A stretch of 38,040 bases of DNA. It comes from Methanomassiliicoccales archaeon. Its GTDB lineage: Archaea > Thermoplasmatota > Thermoplasmata > Methanomassiliicoccales > UBA472. The stretch covers positions 85,014 to 123,053 of the forward strand of contig DATKZX010000004.1 in the NCBI GenBank assembly GCA_035527755.1. The letters are read 5' to 3'. The notes below the pieces were generated by a model. It saw only the letters and a list, made by a program, of their open reading frames with translations, was not told where the DNA came from and searched no databases. The position numbers and the translations under genes are program-made. This document shows, piece by piece, positions 2,950 through 27,983 of this stretch (the first letter of the stretch is position 1; the number at the start of each line of letters is the position of its first letter).

Positions 2950-4467
2950 ATGAAGATCACTGTCTACGGTGGGGCGGGTGTTATCGGTGGCAACAAGATC
3001 CACGTGAGCTTCGGGGACCAAGGGCTGTTCTTTGATTTCGGCGAACCTTTTGATGTGAGTAAGAAATATTGCACGGAGTTCATCAAGCCCCGCGGGGCTC
3101 GGGGGCTTAGGGACTACCTCCGAATGGGGATGCTACCTGCGCTGGACTGCTATAGACCCGACCTGTACCCTGGCGATCTATCCTCTTCGGACATGATCCC
3201 GGTGCGGACGGATGCGCTCTTTCTATCTCACGCCCATTTTGATCATTACGGACATGTGGGCTTCCTTCGCCAGAACATTCCGATCGTGGCCAGCCCCATG
3301 ACCTATGCCATCCTTCGAGCCTACAGCGAGACGGGGAGGGCGAACGCCCCGACCGAGCTCTTTGACCACGTGGTGAGAACGGAGAAGGAGGGGGAGCCAA
3401 GGGTCCTCATCTCCCCCCGTGGAAAGGTAAAGGAGGTAAAGGGCCGGTGCTGGGTGCTGACCGGGGATGTCATTGAGGACGACCCTGCTTGGAAGAAGGG
3501 GTCGGTGTGCGATATCATCAGAGGTGACGGGAAGATAAATGACATCGAGTACCAGGCCTTCCCGGTAGACCACTCGGTCTACGGCGCCACCGCTTACGCC
3601 GTTCGCCATGGGAACGAGGATTGGGTGGTCTACTCCGGAGACCTGAGAATGCATGGCGCGAGAGGGGAGATGAGCGCTGCGTTCGCCGATGCCGCGGGGG
3701 AACTGAGCCCGAAGGCCCTGATCATAGAAGGTACCCGTATCGGCCGGGTCTCGGAGGAAAAGGAGATCACTGAGGCAGTGGTGAGGGAGAACTGCCGGGC
3801 GGCGGTCGAGGAGGGAAAGGGGCTGACCATAGCCGACTTCTCGGCCAATAACTTCGAGCGCCTGGACACGTTCATAGGAATCGCCAAGGATGCTGGAAAG
3901 CGCATGGTGGTCACCCACAGGGACGTGGCCTTCCTGAAGAGCATCGCCAAGGTGGATGGCAACGTGCGCAAGGACGATCTTTGGGTGTACCGATCGCTAA
4001 GCTCAGAGGACATCGAGGCTGTGAACGGTCTAAAGGACAAGGGCTGGCAGGTGGCCGACCCGGACGATATTGCCAAAGACCCTGAGGAATACATGCTTTG
4101 CTTTTCATTCTGGGACATGACCAAGCTGCTGGACCTGGATTGGAACGGAGGAACATACATCTACTCCAACAGCGAGGCCTACGATCTCAAGCAGGTGGAC
4201 AATCTGCAGAAGCTAATGAACTGGATAGACCTATTTGGTTTCAAATGCCGGGGATTGGACATGGTCGATGGACAATTAGAGTTCGAGAGGGGCTTTCACT
4301 CCTCGGGACATCTTTCCCTGCCCCACCTTTGGCAGATCATAGATACGATATCTCCGGAGGTGGTCATACCGGTCCATTGTTCCGACCCGGAGGCCTTCGC
4401 CAGATCATGCCCCGTGGAGACGATCGTACCGGTCAAGGGCCAGCCTATATCTCTGGGCCGTCGTTGA
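2950..4467 (+). CDS. MBL-fold beta-CASP-type metallohydrolase, RNase J-like
   Basis: This 505-residue protein has the metallo-beta-lactamase fold of RNase J-like enzymes. It opens with YGGAGVIGGNKI, has the metal motif SHAHFDH at about 93-99 (His94, His96, Asp98, His99), then VDHSVYGA, YSGDLRMHG and a C-terminal HSSGHLSLPHL with VIPVHCSD, which supply the remaining metal ligands and beta-CASP motifs. The likely role is hydrolysis of RNA or another phosphodiester; the substrate is inferred from the family only. I chose the ATG at 2950; a TTG three codons upstream (2941) is possible. A TATA-like element lies at 2913-2920. Its 3' end overlaps the convergent photolyase by 23 bases. Confidence 0.8.
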   Translation: MKITVYGGAGVIGGNKIHVSFGDQGLFFDFGEPFDVSKKYCTEFIKPRGARGLRDYLRMGMLPALDCYRPDLYPGDLSSSDMIPVRTDALFLSHAHFDHYGHVGFLRQNIPIVASPMTYAILRAYSETGRANAPTELFDHVVRTEKEGEPRVLISPRGKVKEVKGRCWVLTGDVIEDDPAWKKGSVCDIIRGDGKINDIEYQAFPVDHSVYGATAYAVRHGNEDWVVYSGDLRMHGARGEMSAAFADAAGELSPKALIIEGTRIGRVSEEKEITEAVVRENCRAAVEEGKGLTIADFSANNFERLDTFIGIAKDAGKRMVVTHRDVAFLKSIAKVDGNVRKDDLWVYRSLSSEDIEAVNGLKDKGWQVADPDDIAKDPEEYMLCFSFWDMTKLLDLDWNGGTYIYSNSEAYDLKQVDNLQKLMNWIDLFGFKCRGLDMVDGQLEFERGFHSSGHLSLPHLWQIIDTISPEVVIPVHCSDPEAFARSCPVETIVPVKGQPISLGRR

Positions 4468-5854
4468 TCGATCGGACGAATCGGTCCACATCGAACTTTC
4501 TTCGAGCGCCGTTCAAATTCATATATCGGATCTTCCCGAAGATCGGTCGCTCGGCCCAAGCCCTGTCGTGCACCCCTCCGATGCTCCAAGCCGCGCCAGT
4601 ATAACCGTTCGGGTCGCGCCCGTCCATCTCATATCTATCGTTCAGGGATATGACGATGCGTAAGGCCTCTTCGGGCGTCTCCGTCCATTCCAAGATCTTC
4701 TTGGCCCAGTACATACGTAGCCATCCGTGCATCTTTCCCTGTTCGACCATCTGCTTCTGGGCCGCGTTCCAAAGTTGGTCGTGGGTTCTGGAATGCCCTA
4801 GTTCTGCCTCGTCGTACAAATATTCGCGGCGATCGCCCATGTGCTCCCTCAGAGTTGCCCTGGCCCAAGCTGGAAATCCATCGATCGAATCGTATCTGAG
4901 ATTGTAATGACAAAAATTGTCTGAGAGCTCTCGACGGACTATGAGCTCTTCCAGAAAAGCCTCTCTATCACCTTGGGGAGCGGATGATCCCCTGACCGCC
5001 AAAGCCACCGCTTGAGCTGATATCATGCCAAAGTGCAGGTAAGGGGATAACCCAGATTGAGCGTCTAAGTTAGGATCGTTACGACCGAAGCTATAACCTT
5101 CAAGGCGCTTGGTGATAAAATCGTTCAGGACCATGCGCGCCTCGGATTCGCCACCACGCCAATGCTTTTCCTGATACCGTCCAAGTTGGTCGAACGCTCC
5201 TTCGATGTTCACCTCCGGCACATCACCTGGCCAGGAAGGAAATTTTAGGGGGAATGGAGGGAGATGATCGATGTATTCGGAAATATGGGCGGATATCTTT
5301 GGACGAAAGGTGGATGCAGCATAATCCTGTTTTGGAGATGCCCTCCAGCATGGTACAATGTTGTGCGCGTCCACCTCTTCGAACCCGCACTCGCTCCTTT
5401 CCATCGATGTTTTTCTCCATGCCCTCTTCTCCCTCAGAGGATCGAAATCGGTTACGGTCAGAGATATCTCCCATTCCTCCAGGAAACGGGGGAGGGCGTT
5501 CTCCGGTTCTCCCTGTAGCAGGAATAACGGCAACCCTACCCTTTTGGCATTGATTGCCAATTCCCTCAACCCCTGCAGCATGAAACGATAATGCCTCGGA
5601 CCGGCCAATGAGAAATGAGGAGCGAGACAGAACACAATTCCTAATGGGCGCCCTTCCTGGTGGGCCCTGGCCCATGCATGGAACAGCGCCCAATTGTCCT
5701 GCAGTCGCTGGTCCCGGCTCATCCAATAAACAACTGGGCCAGCACCCGAGGAATTACGTGCTGATCGCCATCGGCCCTCGTAACCAGGAACTGTCGCCTG
5801 CATGCGGTATAGAATTCTCCCCCGCGACCTTAATGCCTCCTCAGACCGTTCCAT
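4445..5854 (-). CDS. phr: Class II deoxyribodipyrimidine photolyase
   Basis: This 469-residue flavoenzyme uses blue or near-UV light to split cyclobutane pyrimidine dimers. The class II signature is clear along its length: VVYWMSRDQRLQDNWAL near the start, VTDFDPLREKR, EVDAHNIVPCW, TFRPKI, LSPYLHFGMIS, ELSDNFCHYN, HDQLWNAAQ and the C-terminal RMYWAKKILEW and LNDRYEMDGRDPNGY. The frame is open for 32 codons upstream, but homologues begin only about 20-30 residues before VVYWMS, so I start at 5854 (MERSEEALRS). That start overlaps the stop of the upstream gene by 25 bases, so the two are probably co-transcribed. The stop is TAG. Two heliorhodopsin genes lie about 4 kb away. Confidence 0.92.
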   Translation of the reverse strand: MERSEEALRSRGRILYRMQATVPGYEGRWRSARNSSGAGPVVYWMSRDQRLQDNWALFHAWARAHQEGRPLGIVFCLAPHFSLAGPRHYRFMLQGLRELAINAKRVGLPLFLLQGEPENALPRFLEEWEISLTVTDFDPLREKRAWRKTSMERSECGFEEVDAHNIVPCWRASPKQDYAASTFRPKISAHISEYIDHLPPFPLKFPSWPGDVPEVNIEGAFDQLGRYQEKHWRGGESEARMVLNDFITKRLEGYSFGRNDPNLDAQSGLSPYLHFGMISAQAVALAVRGSSAPQGDREAFLEELIVRRELSDNFCHYNLRYDSIDGFPAWARATLREHMGDRREYLYDEAELGHSRTHDQLWNAAQKQMVEQGKMHGWLRMYWAKKILEWTETPEEALRIVISLNDRYEMDGRDPNGYTGAAWSIGGVHDRAWAERPIFGKIRYMNLNGARRKFDVDRFVRSINDGPEI

Positions 5855-6570
5855 TCTGCCAACCTTTTGAGTTGACGGTATGGGCGGTCCAAGATCAGAG
5901 CCAATAGGACCAAGGGCAGAGGGACGATGATCGGAAAAGGCGAATTCCATGCGAGCGCCAAGGATAATCCAACGGCCATGGATCCTACGGCCAGTGGTGT
6001 ATGCATCAGGGCGTGTCTCCTGCGTGCAAGGGACATTTGTTTACTAAAAAGAGGTGGCTGACTGGCGTCGAGGACCGCCGCGGCGACCGCCGCCGATCTG
6101 AACGAAGCTTGGACCATGATCTCCTCCAGGTCCTTCTTGGGCTTGGTCCTGACGATCGTTCCTCGAACGAACTCAGGTGAGGAGACATATTTTTTCAACC
6201 CCACTTCAATGGCCTTTTGCGGAACGGTTAAACCGGCCAGCTTCTTCTCGCGTCGTTCGTGGGTCAGCCCCATTAACCCCTTTGATGTGGACTTGTCCTG
6301 AATGTAGTGGAGAGCCATCCCTAGATGCCTGTAACCCTGGTAGGTATCATTGCGCAGGAACGATTTTCTGGCCATCCAGACGTGAATCATAATGACCCGG
6401 TCGGATGCTCTGTGATGTCTTACACGATAGGAATGCCCCGGCCTGTTGGCCCTCTCCCCGTGGCGGTCCGGCTCCACCAGCCCATCCAGGAATGACCTCC
6501 TCTCTCCCTCCGACATCTGGAACCGATCGGCGATAGCGTTGCCGATGGAGAGATGAGAACGCCATTTCAT
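5830..6570 (-). CDS. Zinc-dependent phospholipase C-like / S1-P1 nuclease-fold protein with membrane tail
   Basis: The 246-residue protein starts MKWRSHLSIGNAIADRF. It has further His and Asp residues typical of the all-helical zinc phospholipase C / P1 nuclease superfamily: LVEPDRHGE, RPGHSYRVRHH and GMALHYIQDKSTSKG. The C-terminal quarter has two hydrophobic helices (about 185-230), so it may be membrane-anchored. The reaction is unknown. The start is supported by a TATA box (CTTATATAC, about 6590-6598) 25 nt before the ATG, implying a leaderless transcript. The photolyase follows with a 25-base overlap, so this gene probably heads a two-gene unit. Confidence 0.65.
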   Translation of the reverse strand: MKWRSHLSIGNAIADRFQMSEGERRSFLDGLVEPDRHGERANRPGHSYRVRHHRASDRVIMIHVWMARKSFLRNDTYQGYRHLGMALHYIQDKSTSKGLMGLTHERREKKLAGLTVPQKAIEVGLKKYVSSPEFVRGTIVRTKPKKDLEEIMVQASFRSAAVAAAVLDASQPPLFSKQMSLARRRHALMHTPLAVGSMAVGLSLALAWNSPFPIIVPLPLVLLALILDRPYRQLKRLAEWNGLRRH

Positions 6571-8449: not shown

Positions 8450-9949
8450 ATGCAGCGCCATTATTTCGTTGCCAAGATGCCTGATGAACCGGGGGCATTG
8501 CATAGGGCGGCCGAGATCGTCAAACGGCACGGTGGGAACATCGACCGGATCCAATACGACAAGAGGATCGACCCCTATACTGTGTTCTTCGAAGCCCGCT
8601 GCTCCGACGAAGAGTACCTGGCCATGAAGACAGAGCTGGATGCCATTGGCTACCTTCAGGGGCAAATGATGGTTCCCAGCTTTCTCAAGTTCCAGGTGAT
8701 ATTACCAAACAGCAGTGGCGCGTTGTTCGATTTTCTTAATTACACGACCGCCGCAAAGTGCAACATCGATCTATTGGACTTCGATGATCGCGGCAAACAC
8801 CCGGAGCGTCTGACCGTTTCTCTGACGGTGGAGAAGGCCCAGATGGTGGACCATCTCCTGGAGGACCTCAAGTCCCGTTATCCGTTGGAGATATTGGAAT
8901 ATGATACCACTGGTCAGCACCTGGACGACACGGTGTTCTACATTCGCTTCGCCCAGGAGCTGCGGGGACTGCTCGGACATGCTGAAGATGCGTTCCTGTT
9001 GAGATTGCTGTCCGATATCAACCACGTTGCGCAGGAACTGATGAACATGGGCAAGGACCCCAAGCAGGTCTTCTCGGACGTCCTGCGTAGCGGGAAGGAC
9101 CTGAAGATGACCAGTGGGAAGAGCTTTTACGCCGACCTGCAGGAGCTGGACCTGGAGGGAGCGAGATTGCTCTGTGTGCAGATGCCTTGCGGGGGTAACT
9201 CCTACCTGTTGTTGAAGGGGGCGGACGTGACCATAATCGATACCGGCTTCGGAATATACTTCCGTGATCTGGACCTGCTCATGGAAAGAGAGGGATGGGG
9301 CGGCATGGGCATGGTACGTCAGGCGTTCATAACCCACGGAGATGCCGATCACTCCGGTTCTGCCGGACTGTTGAACGCGGAGGTCTGGATGCATCCTGAT
9401 ACGGTGGAAGTGATACGACAGTCCAACCGAGCCTATGGTTCGGAGAGCGAAGGGTCCGTACTGGCTGAGATCTACACCAAACTGATCAATCTCTTCTCCG
9501 CTTTCTCCGTGAACGAAGAGCCTAGGACGTTCCACACCGAAGCATTAGGAAAAAGGGGCGACTTCACCATATTGGCCAGAACGGATGTGGCTGGCATGGG
9601 ATGCGAGGTCCTCGAAGGGTTCGGCGGACATACACAGGGCCAGGTGTTCTATTTCCTTCCCACCCAGCTCGTAATTTTCACCGGTGATAGTCTGATCAAC
9701 TTTGATAGCCTGACCGAAGAGCGCAAGGAGTTCGCCACACTGGCCAAGAACCTCATGACCACGGTGAACGTGGACAGCGTGAAGGCCTCCAAGGAACGCA
9801 AGGGTCTGCTGCGACTGATCGATGAGGTGGAATCGGCCAGGAACGATGGCCGAAAGTGCCTGGTCTGCAGTGGACACGGGGCGATCTCCGTGCTCGAGAA
9901 CGGCCGATTGGTACAGCACGGGAACGTTCGACGATATACCTCGGAATAA
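8450..9949 (+). CDS. Two ACT domains fused to a metallo-beta-lactamase domain
   Basis: This 499-residue fusion has two N-terminal ACT-type domains (about 1-72, with PDEPGALHRAAEIVKRHGGNI; about 78-150, with PNSSGALFDFLNYTTAAKCNI), a helical linker (about 160-225) and a C-terminal MBL hydrolase domain (about 240-495). The metal motif reads HGDADH (His296, Asp298, Asp300, His301), an H-x-D-x-D-H variant; GGHTQGQ and FTGDSL supply later ligands. ACT domains bind amino acids or similar small molecules, so an allosterically controlled hydrolase is the natural inference; substrate unknown. A TATA box (GGTATAAGG, about 8416-8424) lies about 30 nt before the ATG. Confidence 0.85.
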   Translation: MQRHYFVAKMPDEPGALHRAAEIVKRHGGNIDRIQYDKRIDPYTVFFEARCSDEEYLAMKTELDAIGYLQGQMMVPSFLKFQVILPNSSGALFDFLNYTTAAKCNIDLLDFDDRGKHPERLTVSLTVEKAQMVDHLLEDLKSRYPLEILEYDTTGQHLDDTVFYIRFAQELRGLLGHAEDAFLLRLLSDINHVAQELMNMGKDPKQVFSDVLRSGKDLKMTSGKSFYADLQELDLEGARLLCVQMPCGGNSYLLLKGADVTIIDTGFGIYFRDLDLLMEREGWGGMGMVRQAFITHGDADHSGSAGLLNAEVWMHPDTVEVIRQSNRAYGSESEGSVLAEIYTKLINLFSAFSVNEEPRTFHTEALGKRGDFTILARTDVAGMGCEVLEGFGGHTQGQVFYFLPTQLVIFTGDSLINFDSLTEERKEFATLAKNLMTTVNVDSVKASKERKGLLRLIDEVESARNDGRKCLVCSGHGAISVLENGRLVQHGNVRRYTSE

Positions 9950-9978: not shown

Positions 9979-10758
9979 CTAATTTCCCACCAGGGTCCCG
10001 GCGAACACCTGCCATGCCAACGCGGTCTTGGCCACCAGGCTGAGCACGATGTAGATGTACTCCCCATAGAGGTAGTCCTGCCATTTCCCCTTCTTCCTAT
10101 ATTGCAATATCATGTTTATGGCGAATATGTTGAAGAAGAAGGCTATGGAAATGAAAATACCGTAAACGAAGGCTGGGGGCGATCCACCTCTGACACCGGT
10201 GAAGTACATCACTAAAGCGATCCATGGGACCAGACCGGCGAAGCACCCGAATATGAACGAGGTCCAATCGGTTCTCTTGGTGTTCTGGTTGTGCAGCTCC
10301 ATCATGTACCCGAACAGGTTCATGCAGGCATTCAGCGAGAACAACAGCATGATGGATACAAAATCGAACATGCCACACAGCCAAGCGATGACCACCAGCA
10401 TGAACGAGGAAGAAACCGCATATTCGAACCAGCGGGCCTTGTTGATGTTCATCTTCAGGTTCTTTACATACCATTTATAGCCGAAGGTCGAGATCGAGAA
10501 GTGAGCGATCGCCGACATGAGCAGGAATAGCGCAACCATGGGACCAAGCGGCACGGAGAAGAGCTCGAGCGCAGCTCCGGGGCCTCTCGGCGGGAAACCC
10601 CCCGCCGCATCTATGAACGAGGTCGTGAAGACCATCTTTACACTGTAATCTGCGATTGCCAACATGATCGCTGCTTGAATGAAGTGGAATGCCCCCATCA
10701 CCGCATTGAAGCGCCTCAATTTTTGGAACTTGACGTTATCAATATCATTACTATCCAC
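9979..10758 (-). CDS. Heliorhodopsin (copy 1)
   Basis: This 259-residue seven-helix protein has heliorhodopsin signatures: RRFNAVMGAFHFIQ in helix A, SAIAHF in helix B, ARWFEYAVSSSFM in helix C (Glu112 at the counterion position) and LSLVAKTALAWQVFAGTL in helix G, where Lys244 is the expected retinal Schiff-base lysine. His25 and His86 match the conserved pair near the Schiff base. Heliorhodopsins are photoreceptor-like, slow-cycling rhodopsins with inverted topology. An ATG nine codons upstream is open, but the GTG at 10758 is better: it has GAGGGGTT three bases before it, as in copy 2, the N-termini then align without gaps, and the TATA box lies 39 nt away. The stop is TAG. Confidence 0.92.
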   Translation of the reverse strand: MDSNDIDNVKFQKLRRFNAVMGAFHFIQAAIMLAIADYSVKMVFTTSFIDAAGGFPPRGPGAALELFSVPLGPMVALFLLMSAIAHFSISTFGYKWYVKNLKMNINKARWFEYAVSSSFMLVVIAWLCGMFDFVSIMLLFSLNACMNLFGYMMELHNQNTKRTDWTSFIFGCFAGLVPWIALVMYFTGVRGGSPPAFVYGIFISIAFFFNIFAINMILQYRKKGKWQDYLYGEYIYIVLSLVAKTALAWQVFAGTLVGN

Positions 10759-10792
10759 GATAACCCCTCTAAGAATATCATGCATTCAATTG

Positions 10793-10804
10793 GTATAAAT
10801 AAAT
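10793..10804 (-). promoter_or_regulatory. TATA box of heliorhodopsin copy 1
   Basis: An A+T-rich element reading TTTATTTATAC on the minus strand lies about 39 nt before the GTG start. Transcription would begin near 10771, just upstream of the Shine-Dalgarno-like GAGGGGTT at 10762-10769. This excludes the upstream ATG at 10785, which is only about 12 nt from the box. Confidence 0.6.
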
Positions 10805-10939
10805 TCTAATAAATCTATTGAAATGGCAAGTATTATTAATCCTTTGATACGAACTGGCTAAGACCATTCCCTTTAAAACATCTAAAGCGGAGAAAACAGG
10901 CTGATGGTCCATTCGGAGATCATTGACCAGCATCAGTGG

Positions 10940-10967
10940 GAATAGAAAATTGGGGGCCGAAGCCCCC
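10940..10967 (-). terminator. Intrinsic-type terminator after heliorhodopsin copy 2
   Basis: On the minus strand, GGGGGC-TTCG-GCCCCC (10952-10967) makes a 6-bp G/C stem with a stable UUCG tetraloop, followed by AATTTTCT. It starts 18 bases after the stop of heliorhodopsin copy 2, so the two heliorhodopsins are probably separate transcripts. Confidence 0.7.
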
Positions 10968-10984
10968 TTATCGTTCGCTACCTT

Positions 10985-11767
10985 TCAACCCCTCAGGGTG
11001 CCAGACCACACCTGCCAAGCCAATATGCTCTTGGCGAACAGGGACAGGATTATGTACCCCCTCTCTCCGACCAGATAATCGGCCCATTTGCCCTTCCTCC
11101 GGTACTGGAATACCATGTTCAACGGGAAGATGTTGAACGTGATGAACAAGGACACGATGATAAGGTAGACGAATGAGGGTATGGTGTCCGAGTAGGGAGC
11201 GATGGCACCTACGAAATACCAAATGATGACCACCCAGGGAACGAGTCCGGCGATGCATCCGACGTAGAATGGGGTCCAATCCACCTTTTCCCGGTCCTGG
11301 TTCCTCCTCTCCATGAGCATCCCGCAGAGGTTCATGACCATGCAGGAGAAGAATATGAGCAGCAGAGCCCCGAAGTCGAATATGCCCACCAGCAGGGCGA
11401 TGATGACCAGCATCCAAGAGGCGCTGAACGAATATTCGATCCATCGGGCATAGTTGATGTGGTTCTTCAGGTTCCTCACGTACCAAGGATAGAGCCAGGG
11501 CGAAGCCAGCAACCAATGGGCGATAGCGGATATGAACAGAAAGGCCGCCACGGATGGGCCGATCGGCAAGCTGTATACCACATCGGTCTTGTTCATCAGC
11601 GTCTCGGTCAGTTCATCGTAGAAAAGGAAATTGGATGTGATGTTGATGGAAACGGAATTGCTGACCAACAACATCAAGGACGCTTGGATGAAATGGAACA
11701 AGCCCATTATAGCATTGAAGTTCCTCAATTTTTTGAATTTAGTATCATCTGTATCGGCTTCTGCCAT
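10985..11767 (-). CDS. Heliorhodopsin (copy 2)
   Basis: This 260-residue seven-helix protein is paralogous to the neighbouring heliorhodopsin along its whole length. Key positions are His25 (FHFIQ), His84 (AIAHW), Glu111 in ARWIEYSFSASWM (the Schiff-base counterion position) and Lys246 in LSLFAKSILAWQVWSGTL (retinal attachment). The loop after helix A differs clearly from copy 1, so this is an old duplication or two separate acquisitions. The ATG is preceded by GAGGGGTT with the same spacing as in copy 1, and a TATA-like TTTAAAT lies at 11801-11807. It is divergent from the arsA-like operon, with 110 bases between them holding both promoters. Confidence 0.93.
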   Translation of the reverse strand: MAEADTDDTKFKKLRNFNAIMGLFHFIQASLMLLVSNSVSINITSNFLFYDELTETLMNKTDVVYSLPIGPSVAAFLFISAIAHWLLASPWLYPWYVRNLKNHINYARWIEYSFSASWMLVIIALLVGIFDFGALLLIFFSCMVMNLCGMLMERRNQDREKVDWTPFYVGCIAGLVPWVVIIWYFVGAIAPYSDTIPSFVYLIIVSLFITFNIFPLNMVFQYRRKGKWADYLVGERGYIILSLFAKSILAWQVWSGTLRG

Positions 11768-11799
11768 AGAAACCCCTCATAAAATAGGATTTACAGCGT

Positions 11800-11850
11800 A
11801 TTTAAATGACTTGTTTCTGAAGTGAGTCCCTTTCAAAAATAATATTAATG
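11800..11850. promoter_or_regulatory. Divergent promoters between heliorhodopsin 2 and the arsA-like gene
   Basis: A minus-strand TATA-like TTTAAAT (11801-11807) lies 37 nt before the heliorhodopsin ATG. A plus-strand A+T-rich element, AATAATATTAATG (about 11837-11849), lies about 35 nt before the ATG at 11878. The two boxes are only about 35 bases apart, so the genes could be controlled together. Confidence 0.5.
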
Positions 11851-11877
11851 TACTTTCCCCTCACACTGTCGATTGTT

Positions 11878-12798
11878 ATGAAAGAGAACATTCTACGAGA
11901 GGTCATAGAGACCAAGAAGTTCCTGTTCTATGGTGGAAAGGGTGGGGTAGGCAAGACCACCATGGCCGCGACCACTGCAACCTGGCTCGCCGATCACGGA
12001 TACAAGACGCTGATCGTAGCGACCGACCCGACCATCAGCCTCTCGGCCATTTATGGCCAGCATATCGGTGAGACGGAGATAACCAAGATCGGTACGGAGC
12101 GCAATCTGTGCGGATTGAACATCAACCCCAAGAAGGCCATGGGAGTCTTCCAGACCAGGTTGGAGGGCATGATGCAGGGCTTCTCCACCATGTTCGGCAG
12201 TGAACTGCTATCCACACCGTGCACTGAGGAGATCGCCGCTTTCGACCAGTTCGTCAGCTTCTTCGAGGATACCGAACATGACAAGGTGGTCTTCGATACG
12301 GCACCAACAGGTCACACCCTAAGAGAGCTGTCCATGCCTTTCGACTGGTCGGGATACATCTCCAACCAGATCAAGAATCGTCGAGAGCTGTCGGAAGCTT
12401 TGGGCTTCGTTTACGATGAGCAGATGGTGGCCGATCTGGAAGTTGAGAAGGCCCGTTACGACCGTTCGGTCAAAGGGCTTTCGGACACCAGCATCTCCGC
12501 CTTCAACCTAGTGCTGCTGCCGGAAAAGCTGCCCATCGAGGAGACCGCCAGAGCCATCGAGGACCTTTCGGGTTTCGGCATCAAGGTGCGCTCGCTCATC
12601 ATCAACGAGGTCATCCCCAAGGAGGTCCTTCAGGGCAACTGGTTCTTAGAAAGGAGAAGGGCAACACAGGACAAGTACCTGAAAGAGATCGAGGAACGGT
12701 TCTCGTCCATAACCCGCAAGGAAGTGCCTCTTCTCGACACCGACGTTTATGGGATGGACATTCTGAGACGGGTGGGAAGAGGTCTGTATGGCGAATAA
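11878..12798 (+). CDS. ArsA/Get3-family ATPase
   Basis: The 306-residue protein has the deviant Walker A loop GGKGGVGKTT at about 19-28, the ATDPTISLS switch and VVFDTAPTGHTLREL, all typical of ArsA/Get3 ATPases. Family members drive arsenite export as partners of ArsB or deliver tail-anchored membrane proteins. It is a single-domain form. There are few Cys residues (NLCGLN, TPCTEE), so an arsenite site like that of the bacterial pump is not obvious. I start at the ATG at 11878 (MKENILREV), because the upstream in-frame ATG overlaps the TATA element. It overlaps the next gene by 11 bases and begins a three-gene operon. Confidence 0.88.
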   Translation: MKENILREVIETKKFLFYGGKGGVGKTTMAATTATWLADHGYKTLIVATDPTISLSAIYGQHIGETEITKIGTERNLCGLNINPKKAMGVFQTRLEGMMQGFSTMFGSELLSTPCTEEIAAFDQFVSFFEDTEHDKVVFDTAPTGHTLRELSMPFDWSGYISNQIKNRRELSEALGFVYDEQMVADLEVEKARYDRSVKGLSDTSISAFNLVLLPEKLPIEETARAIEDLSGFGIKVRSLIINEVIPKEVLQGNWFLERRRATQDKYLKEIEERFSSITRKEVPLLDTDVYGMDILRRVGRGLYGE

Positions 12799-17314: not shown

Positions 17315-18286
17315 TTATTGCGGTTCGACATCGAACGTCGCACCGCCCCCTTGATCACGCGTGGCCGCCTCGAGGATTGCATCGAGGTTCACCCCGGTCA
17401 TCTTCTCCGACAGCTTCCAGACCCTCCTAGCCAGATCGTTATCCTTTCCCCGTTTATGCGGTTCTACCAGGACGGGACATCCTTTGAACTCCATCCAGCC
17501 ATCGGGACCGAAGTAGTCACCGTTGGTGGCGTTCGGGTCCAAAGCAGCCCGCAATGCAGGCATAGCCCCTTCGTTGAGGCCGTGCATGAATGGTTTTAGA
17601 CCCTTGCGCATAAGTTTTCCGTTTCTATACAGAGGGGTGTCCACCAGGCCGGGATGACAGGTCAAGCTGATAGGCGCGCCCAAACCCATCTGGTCCAGCC
17701 TCCTGTGCAGCTCCCGGGAGAACAGCAGGGTAGCCAGTTTGCTCTGCTTGTAAGCCCTCCACGCCCTGTAGGACCTTTCGGAATTGATATCCTTGAAGTT
17801 GATCCGGCCACCTCGATGCACTATGCTCGATTGGGTGATCAAACGGGAATTGGGCGTGTTCGATAGGATACCCAGTAAATGTGCCGTGAGGACGAAATGC
17901 CCAAGATGGTTCACTCCCCACTGAGACTCGAACCCATCGTTGGTCCGTCCATAGGGGGGTGTCATTATCCCAGCGTTGTTGATGAGCAGGTCCAGGGAGA
18001 TGTGCCCTGATCTGAACCATTCTGCGAACCGCTCTATCGAGCGCAGGTCGCCCAGGTCTAATCCCATCGCCGTGGGCGTCGCCCTTGGGATGGACCTTCT
18101 TATCTCCATGGCCACGGCCTCAGCCCCTTCCAGATCGATATCGGCCAGTATGACGGCCCCTCCCATTGTCGACAGTGACTTGGCGATGTGCGCCCCCAGT
18201 CCGGAGGCCGCGCCGGTTACGATGACGGTCTTGCCGTCGATGCGCGGCACGTTCTCGTCACGCCAATCCCATGCGCGTTCTGGCAT
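17315..18286 (-). CDS. Short-chain dehydrogenase/reductase, retinol dehydrogenase-like
   Basis: The 323-residue oxidoreductase has the cofactor motif TGAASGLG (about 24-31), NNAGIM (about 103-108), the active-site Ser in ITQSSIVHRGG and the YKQSK catalytic Tyr-Lys pair. The order and spacing (GFESQWGVNHLGHFVLT, then RAWRAYKQSKLATLLF) match the SDR group that includes retinol dehydrogenases and WW-domain oxidoreductases, although bacterial members act on many alcohols. The frame is open upstream into a tRNA gene, so I start at 18286 (MPERAWDWRD), 32 nt after a TATA-like CGATTATC. Its substrate is unknown. Confidence 0.8.
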   Translation of the reverse strand: MPERAWDWRDENVPRIDGKTVIVTGAASGLGAHIAKSLSTMGGAVILADIDLEGAEAVAMEIRRSIPRATPTAMGLDLGDLRSIERFAEWFRSGHISLDLLINNAGIMTPPYGRTNDGFESQWGVNHLGHFVLTAHLLGILSNTPNSRLITQSSIVHRGGRINFKDINSERSYRAWRAYKQSKLATLLFSRELHRRLDQMGLGAPISLTCHPGLVDTPLYRNGKLMRKGLKPFMHGLNEGAMPALRAALDPNATNGDYFGPDGWMEFKGCPVLVEPHKRGKDNDLARRVWKLSEKMTGVNLDAILEAATRDQGGGATFDVEPQ

Positions 18287-18378
18287 GGTGGTGTGGATGT
18301 GGTGGTGAGATGATAATCGTTTCCGGGACACTTCCCGGCAGTATGCCCTGAACCCCTCGGGCTCATGGATAAGAATGA

Positions 18379-18455
18379 TGGCGGGCCCGTGGGGATTCGA
18401 ACCCCAGTCTTCGGCTTCGAAGGCCAAAAGGATATCCAGACTACCCTACGGGCCC
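18379..18455 (-). tRNA. tRNA-Arg (anticodon TCG)
   Basis: A full cloverleaf reads on the minus strand from 18455: acceptor GGGCCCG pairing with CGGGCCC, D-arm, anticodon stem TTGGC/GCCGA with loop CTTCGAA (anticodon TCG), T-arm TGGGG-TTCGAAT-CCCCA, discriminator G, and an encoded CCA at 18379-18381. No intron is seen. Confidence 0.95.
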
Positions 18456-26051: not shown

Positions 26052-26930
26052 ATGCCCATTGATCGTATCCTCAAGGTAGGACTGGTCCAGATGGCCATGT
26101 CCTTGGACGTTGAAGCTAACTTGCGCAAAGCGATCAGCATGTCCAAGGAGGCGGCCGATCGTGGAGCACAGGTGGTCTGCCTGCCGGAACTGTTCACCAC
26201 CCTGTACTTTCCAAGAGAGGAGGACCCCGAAGGCAATGCGGACAGGAGCGCCGTGCTGAACACCATACCCGGCATGGTGACCGAGGAGCTGTCCAGATTG
26301 GCCCAGGATACGGGAGCGATCGTCATCGGCGGTTCCATCTATGAGGCAGCGGACGAGGGGCTGTACAATACCGCCACCGTTTTCGAGAAGGACGGCCGTT
26401 ATCTGGGTAAATATCGTAAGACCCACATCCCCCATGATGAGTATTTTTACGAACAGCACTACTTCGATGCCGGAGATACTGGGTTCCAGGTCTTCGAGAC
26501 CTCGGTCGGACGTCTGTCGGTCCTCATCTGTTACGATCAGTGGTTCCCTGAGGCCGCCCGGTCCGTAGCTCTCATAGGGGCGGAGATGATATTCTATCCC
26601 ACGGCCATCGGCACGGTACTGGGAATTGAACAGACCGAGGGCGATTGGCAGCAGGCCTGGGAGAACGTCATGCGGGGGCACGCCATCGCCAATGGCACAC
26701 CGGTGTGCGCCGTCAACAGGGTCGGCATCGAAGGAGATTCGGAGTTCTTTGGCGGGTCCTTCATCTGCGATGCCTTCGGGAAGACCCTGGCCAGGGGAGG
26801 ACGGGGCGAAGAGATCGTTTTGGCCGATGTCGACATGGACCACGGCCGAAAGATCCGCGAAGGTTGGAGGTTCTTTCACAACCGCCGCCCGGAACATTAT
26901 GGCCGCCTGGTGCAGAGGACAGGTCCTTGA
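26052..26930 (+). CDS. aguB: N-carbamoylputrescine amidohydrolase
   Basis: This 292-residue nitrilase-superfamily enzyme converts N-carbamoylputrescine to putrescine, CO2 and ammonia. The catalytic triad is visible: Glu46 in LPELFT, Lys123 in KYRKTHIP and Cys160 in LICYDQWFPEAAR. YFYEQHYFDAGDTGF and SEFFGGSFICD are close to the plant and bacterial enzymes. The gene is followed after 12 bases by agmatine deiminase, which makes its substrate and strengthens the assignment over a general omega-amidase. Confidence 0.92.
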   Translation: MPIDRILKVGLVQMAMSLDVEANLRKAISMSKEAADRGAQVVCLPELFTTLYFPREEDPEGNADRSAVLNTIPGMVTEELSRLAQDTGAIVIGGSIYEAADEGLYNTATVFEKDGRYLGKYRKTHIPHDEYFYEQHYFDAGDTGFQVFETSVGRLSVLICYDQWFPEAARSVALIGAEMIFYPTAIGTVLGIEQTEGDWQQAWENVMRGHAIANGTPVCAVNRVGIEGDSEFFGGSFICDAFGKTLARGGRGEEIVLADVDMDHGRKIREGWRFFHNRRPEHYGRLVQRTGP

Positions 26931-26942
26931 GGTGATGGTTCG

Positions 26943-27983
26943 ATGAAAACGCCCTGTTCGTTAGGATATTACATGCCGGCCGAATGGTCTAAACATGAGG
27001 CTACCTGGCTTTCCTGGCCGAAGAACCCGCTGACCTTTCCCCCGGAGGTGCTGGGGGAGGTGGAAGAGATCTTTGCTCATATGACCGCCGCCCTAAGCGG
27101 CGCTGAACTGGTGAAGATACTGGTGGACGACGCCGAGGCCGAAGAGCATGCTTTCAAGAAGGTCGCCAAGGCCGGGGCGGACATGGGCAAGGTCCGGTTC
27201 CTGCACATCAAGAGCGCTGACGTTTGGATCAGGGACTATGGCCCGACATTCCTCCTGCATCGACAGACCGGAAAACGAGCGGCGGTGAAATGGCAGTTCA
27301 ACGCCTGGGGAGGCAAATACGACGACCTGCTGTACGACGATGTGACCGGTAAGGATGTCGTAGAGAGCTCTGGAAGCAAGTATTTCGAGCCAGGGATAGT
27401 AATGGAGGGCGGTGCCATCGACGTTAATGGTCAGGGCATGGTATTGACGACGGAGCAATGCCTGCTCAATAAGAACCGCAATCCTCATCTCGATCGTCAT
27501 CAGATCGAGGAATATCTGCATCGATACATTTCCACGACGGATGTGGTCTGGTTATCGTCTGGCATCGAAGGTGACGATACCGATGGCCACGTGGACGATT
27601 TCGCCAGGTTCGCTAGCAGTACGGCGGTCCTATGCGCCCACTCCGATAAAGGGGAGAACGCCCCGGTCCTATGCAGGAACTGGAAGATATTGGAGCAATG
27701 GAAGGACCGCGCTGGACTGGAATTGCAACGGTTGCCCATGCCAGCGCCCCTGTACCTGGAAGAGGAGGAACGGAACCTTCCGGCCAGCTACGCCAACTTC
27801 TACATCGGGAACAAAGTGGTGCTGTTGCCGGTCTTCAACGACCCCCAGGACCGCAATGCGATCGATATCGTGAGCTCTTTCTTTCCCGGAAGGGAGATCG
27901 TACCTATAATGGCCAGAGAGCTAGTGTACGGCTACGGCGGCATTCACTGCGTGACCCAGCAGGAACCGGCGGAACGGGATTGA
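26943..27983 (+). CDS. aguA: Agmatine deiminase
   Basis: This 346-residue enzyme of the peptidyl-arginine deiminase family converts agmatine to N-carbamoylputrescine. Seen: EWSKHEATWLSWP at the N-terminus, VWIRDYGPTFL, VMEGGAIDVNGQG, GDDTDGHVDDFARF with the catalytic His and Asp residues, and the nucleophile Cys336 in GYGGIHCVTQQEP. With aguB it forms a two-step route from agmatine to putrescine, agmatine coming from arginine by a decarboxylase not present here. The ATG lies 12 bases after the aguB stop. Confidence 0.94.
   Translation: MKTPCSLGYYMPAEWSKHEATWLSWPKNPLTFPPEVLGEVEEIFAHMTAALSGAELVKILVDDAEAEEHAFKKVAKAGADMGKVRFLHIKSADVWIRDYGPTFLLHRQTGKRAAVKWQFNAWGGKYDDLLYDDVTGKDVVESSGSKYFEPGIVMEGGAIDVNGQGMVLTTEQCLLNKNRNPHLDRHQIEEYLHRYISTTDVVWLSSGIEGDDTDGHVDDFARFASSTAVLCAHSDKGENAPVLCRNWKILEQWKDRAGLELQRLPMPAPLYLEEEERNLPASYANFYIGNKVVLLPVFNDPQDRNAIDIVSSFFPGREIVPIMARELVYGYGGIHCVTQQEPAERD

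Follow-up and report, generated by a model that had tools for sequence, protein, structure and literature searches.

Two heliorhodopsins of deeply separated lineages encoded side by side in a Methanomassiliicoccales methanogen

Introduction

The role of heliorhodopsins (HeRs) is still largely open, and two natural versions of the protein in one cell and one gene neighbourhood offer a clean comparison. Genomes with two copies as such are already known in other microbes: two or three heliorhodopsins per genome are described for SAR202 JH545 (PMC10444878), Aquiluna (PMC12422013), and coccolithoviruses (PMC9448325). SAR202 JH545 carries two heliorhodopsins, one gene away from a DNA photolyase, which differ at the W163 site; however, its copies are ~83% identical and the host is a bacterium, whereas the two proteins described here, HeR-A and HeR-B, are 50% identical, belong to separate lineages, and occur in a methanogen. 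In Aquiluna (PMC12422013) and EhV-201/202 (PMC9448325), the copies are mostly of distinct lineages rather than recent duplicates, as in our case, but the hosts are bacterial or viral, and the accessible text of these reports mentions no head-to-tail slot shared by copies of deep divergence.

The closest solved structure to HeR-A and HeR-B is that of TaHeR from Thermoplasmatales archaeon SG8-52-1 (PDB 6is6 and 7u55), with scores of 258 and 255 bits, respectively. TaHeR shares with both copies the Schiff-base Lys, the counterion Glu, the His pair, an Arg/Glu pair, and a Met/Met/Ala set of colour residues, although it belongs to another Thermoplasmatota clade and HeR-B departs from it at positions 144, 151, 163, 203, and 210. 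A further relevant system is TfHeR, which binds a class II CPD photolyase and raises its repair activity (PMC9769723). Its gene also lies near that of a class II photolyase, and it likewise has basic residues in the cytoplasmic loops, compared at the level of whole loops. While TfHeR forms an operon with the photolyase and its binding was measured, the genes in our locus are ~4 kb apart.

A full-text literature search on heliorhodopsin with methanogens and on rhodopsin with Methanomassiliicoccales, which covered few subscription journals, returned no title or abstract on such a pair. What seems new is that a single slot contains both lineages despite their deep separation, that the host is a methanogen, and that the history of gain and loss could be reconstructed. 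Because relatives with only one of the two copies exist and the list of differing residues is short, spectra, kinetics, and partners could be matched to which species lost which copy. The locus also poses the question of chromophore supply in a methanogen with no detected carotenoid or retinal route.

Results and discussion

Two intact heliorhodopsin genes in tandem

The window, that is, the whole stretch of 38,040 nt analysed here, derives from a Methanomassiliicoccales methanogen genome of 1.68 Mb (99.7% complete). The two heliorhodopsin genes lie head to tail on its minus strand in a slot with the following genes:

8450..9949, plus strand: ACT-domain/metallo-beta-lactamase-fold (ACT/MBL) protein (Pfam Lactamase_B); slot border on the HeR-A side, convergent with this gene
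9979..10758, minus strand: HeR-A, heliorhodopsin of clade A, 259 aa, GTG start at 10758 (PF18761, NF038020)
10985..11767, minus strand: HeR-B, heliorhodopsin of clade B, 260 aa, ATG start at 11767 (PF18761, NF038020)
11848..12798, plus strand: ArsA/Get3-family ATPase (PF02374, 246 bits), divergent from HeR-B; the other border of the slot

The initial annotation, made from the sequence alone, had called two tandem heliorhodopsin genes, and both open reading frames with their full-length family matches bear this out. Against Pfam PF18761 (cut-off 26.7 bits), HeR-A and HeR-B scored 318 and 306 bits with profile positions 1-242 covered in both, and against the NCBIfam equivalog NF038020 "heliorhodopsin HeR" (cut-off 100 bits) they scored 314 and 316 bits. 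The HeR-A frame stays open back to an ATG at 10785, which would give a protein of 268 aa. The residues that had been named were also exact (His25, His86, Glu112, and Lys244 in HeR-A; His25, His84, Glu111, and Lys246 in HeR-B), and the Schiff-base Lys in helix G, the counterion Glu in helix C, and the His pair align with K241, E107, and H23/H80 of 48C12. Alignment with 48C12 and TaHeR also gave a long extracellular A-B loop of 34-36 residues in both copies. By homology to TaHeR, we assumed the inverted topology with a cytoplasmic N-terminus for both proteins.

The following elements were found around the two starts and between the genes:

10762..10769, minus strand: GAGGGGTT, Shine-Dalgarno site of HeR-A; varies among orthologues as GGAGG-type sites
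10792..10799, minus strand: TTTATACC (TTTATA), TATA-box-like, HeR-A; by consensus resemblance only
10952..10967, minus strand: hairpin GGGGGCTTCGGCCCCC, followed by AATTTTC, a T-rich tail; probable terminator of HeR-B, between the genes
11771..11778, minus strand: GAGGGGTT, Shine-Dalgarno site of HeR-B; varies among orthologues
11799..11806, minus strand: TTTAAATA, TATA-box-like, HeR-B; by consensus resemblance only

The two genes had been credited with an identical start architecture, a TATA box each, and a strong terminator between them. The same GAGGGGTT indeed stands three bases ahead of both start codons, but it is an ordinary Shine-Dalgarno site that varies among orthologues: those of HeR-A have GGAGGTTT (G018 and G019) or AGGAGGTC (G010), and those of HeR-B have GGAGGGGGTT (G014) or AGGGGGT (G013). 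A shared regulatory element at this site was thus ruled out. A TATA-like box, judged by its resemblance to the consensus, does precede each start. The hairpin with its T-rich tail agrees with a terminator, although this stretch contained 2 terminator-like sites against 2.2 expected from shuffled sequences, that is, no enrichment.

Two old lineages in one slot

A tree of 94 proteins and a second one, inferred under a mixture model from a reduced set of rows, addressed the question raised in the initial annotation of whether the pair arose by duplication or by two acquisitions. HeR-A falls into a well-supported clade A with the copies of family f1 and of genera g27 and g30 of family f6, and HeR-B into a well-supported clade B with those of G013, G014, and the f6 genera g19 and g26; both clades were recovered under the mixture model. 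The head-to-tail layout would suit a tandem duplication that occurred recently, within the genome or genus, and was followed by rapid divergence. However, the nearest relatives of each copy are found in other genomes and genera and not in the neighbouring gene, and the AU test rejected both a sister relationship of the two window copies (lnL lower by 327, p = 2.8e-5) and a common group of all A and B copies of the genus (lnL lower by 177, p = 2.8e-6). We therefore regard a recent duplication as hardly credible, while its deeper form, with the whole clades A and B as sisters, was not rejected (AU p = 0.118). HeR-A and HeR-B are two lineages that split before the genus and later came to lie side by side, and their ultimate origin may be a duplication at the level of the order or a transfer of B.

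Synteny tells which copy is the older occupant. The ACT/MBL border is conserved in nine genomes (G013, G014, G018, G019, G016, G021, G010, G011, and G005), and the order ACT/MBL, HeR-A, ArsA occurs in three genera (G018 and G019; G010 and G011 of genus g7; G005 of genus g4). HeR-A is thus the ancestral resident of the slot between ACT/MBL and ArsA. HeR-B was found between HeR-A and ArsA only in this genome (G000) and in G013. Since the flanking proteins of these two species lineages are only ~77% identical, the pair is no assembly artefact. Their sister species differ: G014, sister of G000, has HeR-B alone with HeR-A gone, and G021, sister of G013, retains a slot of 241 nt with a heliorhodopsin remnant only. 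The pair is therefore dispensable. In the remnant (L083, 7744-7984), ~12 codons from the start of a heliorhodopsin gene run directly into the final 19-20 codons of HeR-A. The slot genes are missing from G015. Slot absence in G017 and G020 was dropped as evidence of loss, and both genomes were left out of the loss calls, because the slot falls at contig ends there.

The survey of relatives proposed earlier confirmed that a tandem is unusual. Among 147 genomes of the order, 39 gave a heliorhodopsin match, some of them fragments only; two full copies were present in six (G000, G013, G011, G040, G042, and G044), a tandem pair in two (G000 and G013), and one copy or only fragments in the remaining 33. 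Nearly all carriers in the class and phylum samples were single-copy as well. The expectation that heliorhodopsins are usually single-copy thus holds for the order, but exceptions exist, namely the published multi-copy genomes of SAR202 JH545, Aquiluna, and coccolithoviruses. The heliorhodopsin gene of G032 (L081, 7146-8347, plus strand) is split over two frames at one place, probably by a frameshift or an assembly error.

Selection and residue differences

Both copies are under purifying selection: dN/dS was 0.032/0.80 for HeR-B (G000 versus G014) and 0.125/1.25 for HeR-A (G000 versus G019), with several dS values near saturation. In 48C12 numbering, HeR-A and HeR-B differ at positions 112, 138, 144, 151, 163, 203, and 210. 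Position 210 is Ala in A and Pro in B; counted from the match of F206 with bacteriorhodopsin W182, it would correspond to P186 of that protein. Site 163 is Ile in A and Tyr or Trp in B, and the cytoplasmic D-E loop differs consistently between the two. W163 of 48C12 is the colour site named for the SAR202 heliorhodopsins (PMC10444878). At the contacts F144 and Y151 of 48C12, all A copies have Phe/His and all B copies Cys/Arg, and loop A-B differs in both length and sequence; mutation of these dimer contacts impairs 48C12 (PMC6951262).

The divergence of the pair had been read as a sign of two functions, for example two colours. A split of function is plausible in view of the purifying selection and of the differences at 163, 210, and the D-E loop, but the candidate colour sites 148, 213, and 240 (PMC7807009) are Met/Met/Ala in both A and B, and key retinal-site residues are alike too. 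A colour split through these three sites was therefore ruled out; the site of W163 and further, unproven positions do differ. Judged from these residues, different spectra or kinetics of HeR-A and HeR-B are possible. The order also has a third heliorhodopsin clade (L053, L059-L061, L063, L067, L072, and L086), characterised by Trp206, Pro210, and Ser240, the last being a known blue-shifting change.

Photolyase and light damage

The neighbourhood of the pair includes genes for Fpg, a thioredoxin-like protein, and the following enzyme:

4445..5950, minus strand: class II CPD photolyase (TIGR00591, 574 bits; cut-off 550)

Genes of both strands lie between it and the pair, and there is no shared operon. 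A class II photolyase also occurs in the heliorhodopsin neighbourhood of G013, G014, G011, G010, and G005, and heliorhodopsin is present in 23 of the 28 photolyase genomes of the order (Fisher p = 4e-12 by genome, a value inflated by kinship, and 3e-4 by genus). Together with the precedent of TfHeR, this neighbourhood and co-occurrence led us to take HeR-A and HeR-B as putative light-damage sensors. The photolyase cannot be the sole partner, because HeR-A is kept with no detected class II photolyase in G018, G019, and genera g27 and g30 of family f6. These two genera, which include RumEn M2, have intact HeR-A (L068, L069, L070, L071, and L154 in G146, G141, G131, G132, and G143); if they dwell in the gut, a light sensor would be unexpected there.

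What the pair may do

We put the probability at about 60% that HeR-A and HeR-B are two functional, non-pumping photosensors of different ancient lineages that work as homodimers, each with its own spectrum or kinetics and its own partner. HeR-B, of a second lineage widespread in the order, would have come to sit upstream of HeR-A in this genus. Each gene would probably have a promoter of its own, with the product forming a homodimer that binds retinal acquired from outside and runs the usual slow heliorhodopsin photocycle without pumping. The resulting conformational signal might then pass to cytoplasmic partners, of which those in light-damage repair, the class II photolyase nearby included, appear likeliest. 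The differing retinal pocket, dimer contacts, and D-E loop would probably give the two copies a different spectrum or kinetics and a different partner, and such a division of labour, as we infer it, would explain why some species keep both.

It is also conceivable, though unlikely, that B joined A to do much the same job and that the tandem is a transient paralogy now being resolved by recombination with loss of either copy. The varied outcomes in sister species fit this reading, with only B in G014, only A in G018 and G019, and a HeR-A type remnant fused to a heliorhodopsin start in G021, and so does a stretch of 87 nt at the 5' ends of the two genes, which is 71% identical and could recombine. 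Against it stand the fixed A/B differences held over several genera, the strong purifying selection on each copy, and the persistence of the pair in two lineages as distant as G000 and G013.

A heterodimer, which had been raised in the initial annotation, fared worse. Known heliorhodopsins are dimers (PMC6951262; PMC9385722), and adjacent genes of one membrane family would suit an obligate A/B heterodimer with a new function, but close relatives live with A alone or B alone, and the separate promoter-like sites and the hairpin between the genes provide no built-in stoichiometry. The consistent A/B differences at the contacts 144/151 and in loop A-B favour two homodimers over a heterodimer, and we consider the obligate form quite improbable.

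Beyond the pair, the order may have kept one canonical (Phe206, Ala210, Ala240) and one variant type of heliorhodopsin as a two-colour or two-speed light-stress sensor in anaerobes that import retinal. The variant types are B (aromatic 163, Phe203, Pro210) and clade III (Trp206, Pro210, Ser240), and five of the six two-copy genomes combine a canonical with a variant type. Only about three of the lineages involved are independent, and the pattern was spotted post hoc; we offer this idea tentatively and rather doubt it.

Retinal source and neighbouring genes

Phytoene synthase was not found in the 99.7% complete source genome, while seven control genomes were positive. The search for a retinal-forming oxygenase, which had no positive control and is weaker, gave ten PF15461 matches, all below the cut-off and all in heliorhodopsin-bearing genomes. 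A divergent oxygenase was set aside as a candidate, as both of the PF15461 loci inspected, out of five, resemble FlaJ/TadC-type membrane proteins in our reading of the sequence. Because no synthesis route was found, the retinal likely comes from outside by uptake from the environment. Rhodopsins in the absence of retinal genes have been described in Actinomarinales (PMC7771536).

The window also encodes a short-chain dehydrogenase (SDR) of the PRK06197 type, distantly related to protochlorophyllide reductase, at 17315-18427 on the minus strand. Of the 147 genomes surveyed in the order, 17 encode this type, and 15 of these 17 also bear a heliorhodopsin (Fisher p = 2e-8); in family f6 it is present in all ten heliorhodopsin genomes versus 1 of the 92 others. 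In three f6 genomes its distance to HeR-A is 0.5-1.3 kb, and in G033 a homologue is located directly 3' of the heliorhodopsin gene. SDR genes have been listed among heliorhodopsin neighbours (PMC11109279). As a guess, this protein could be a retinol/retinal dehydrogenase and a lead on the retinal source. Elsewhere in the window, a carbon-nitrogen hydrolase adjoins an agmatine-deiminase-type protein (26052-27983, plus strand), and the two are likely a putrescine pathway pair.
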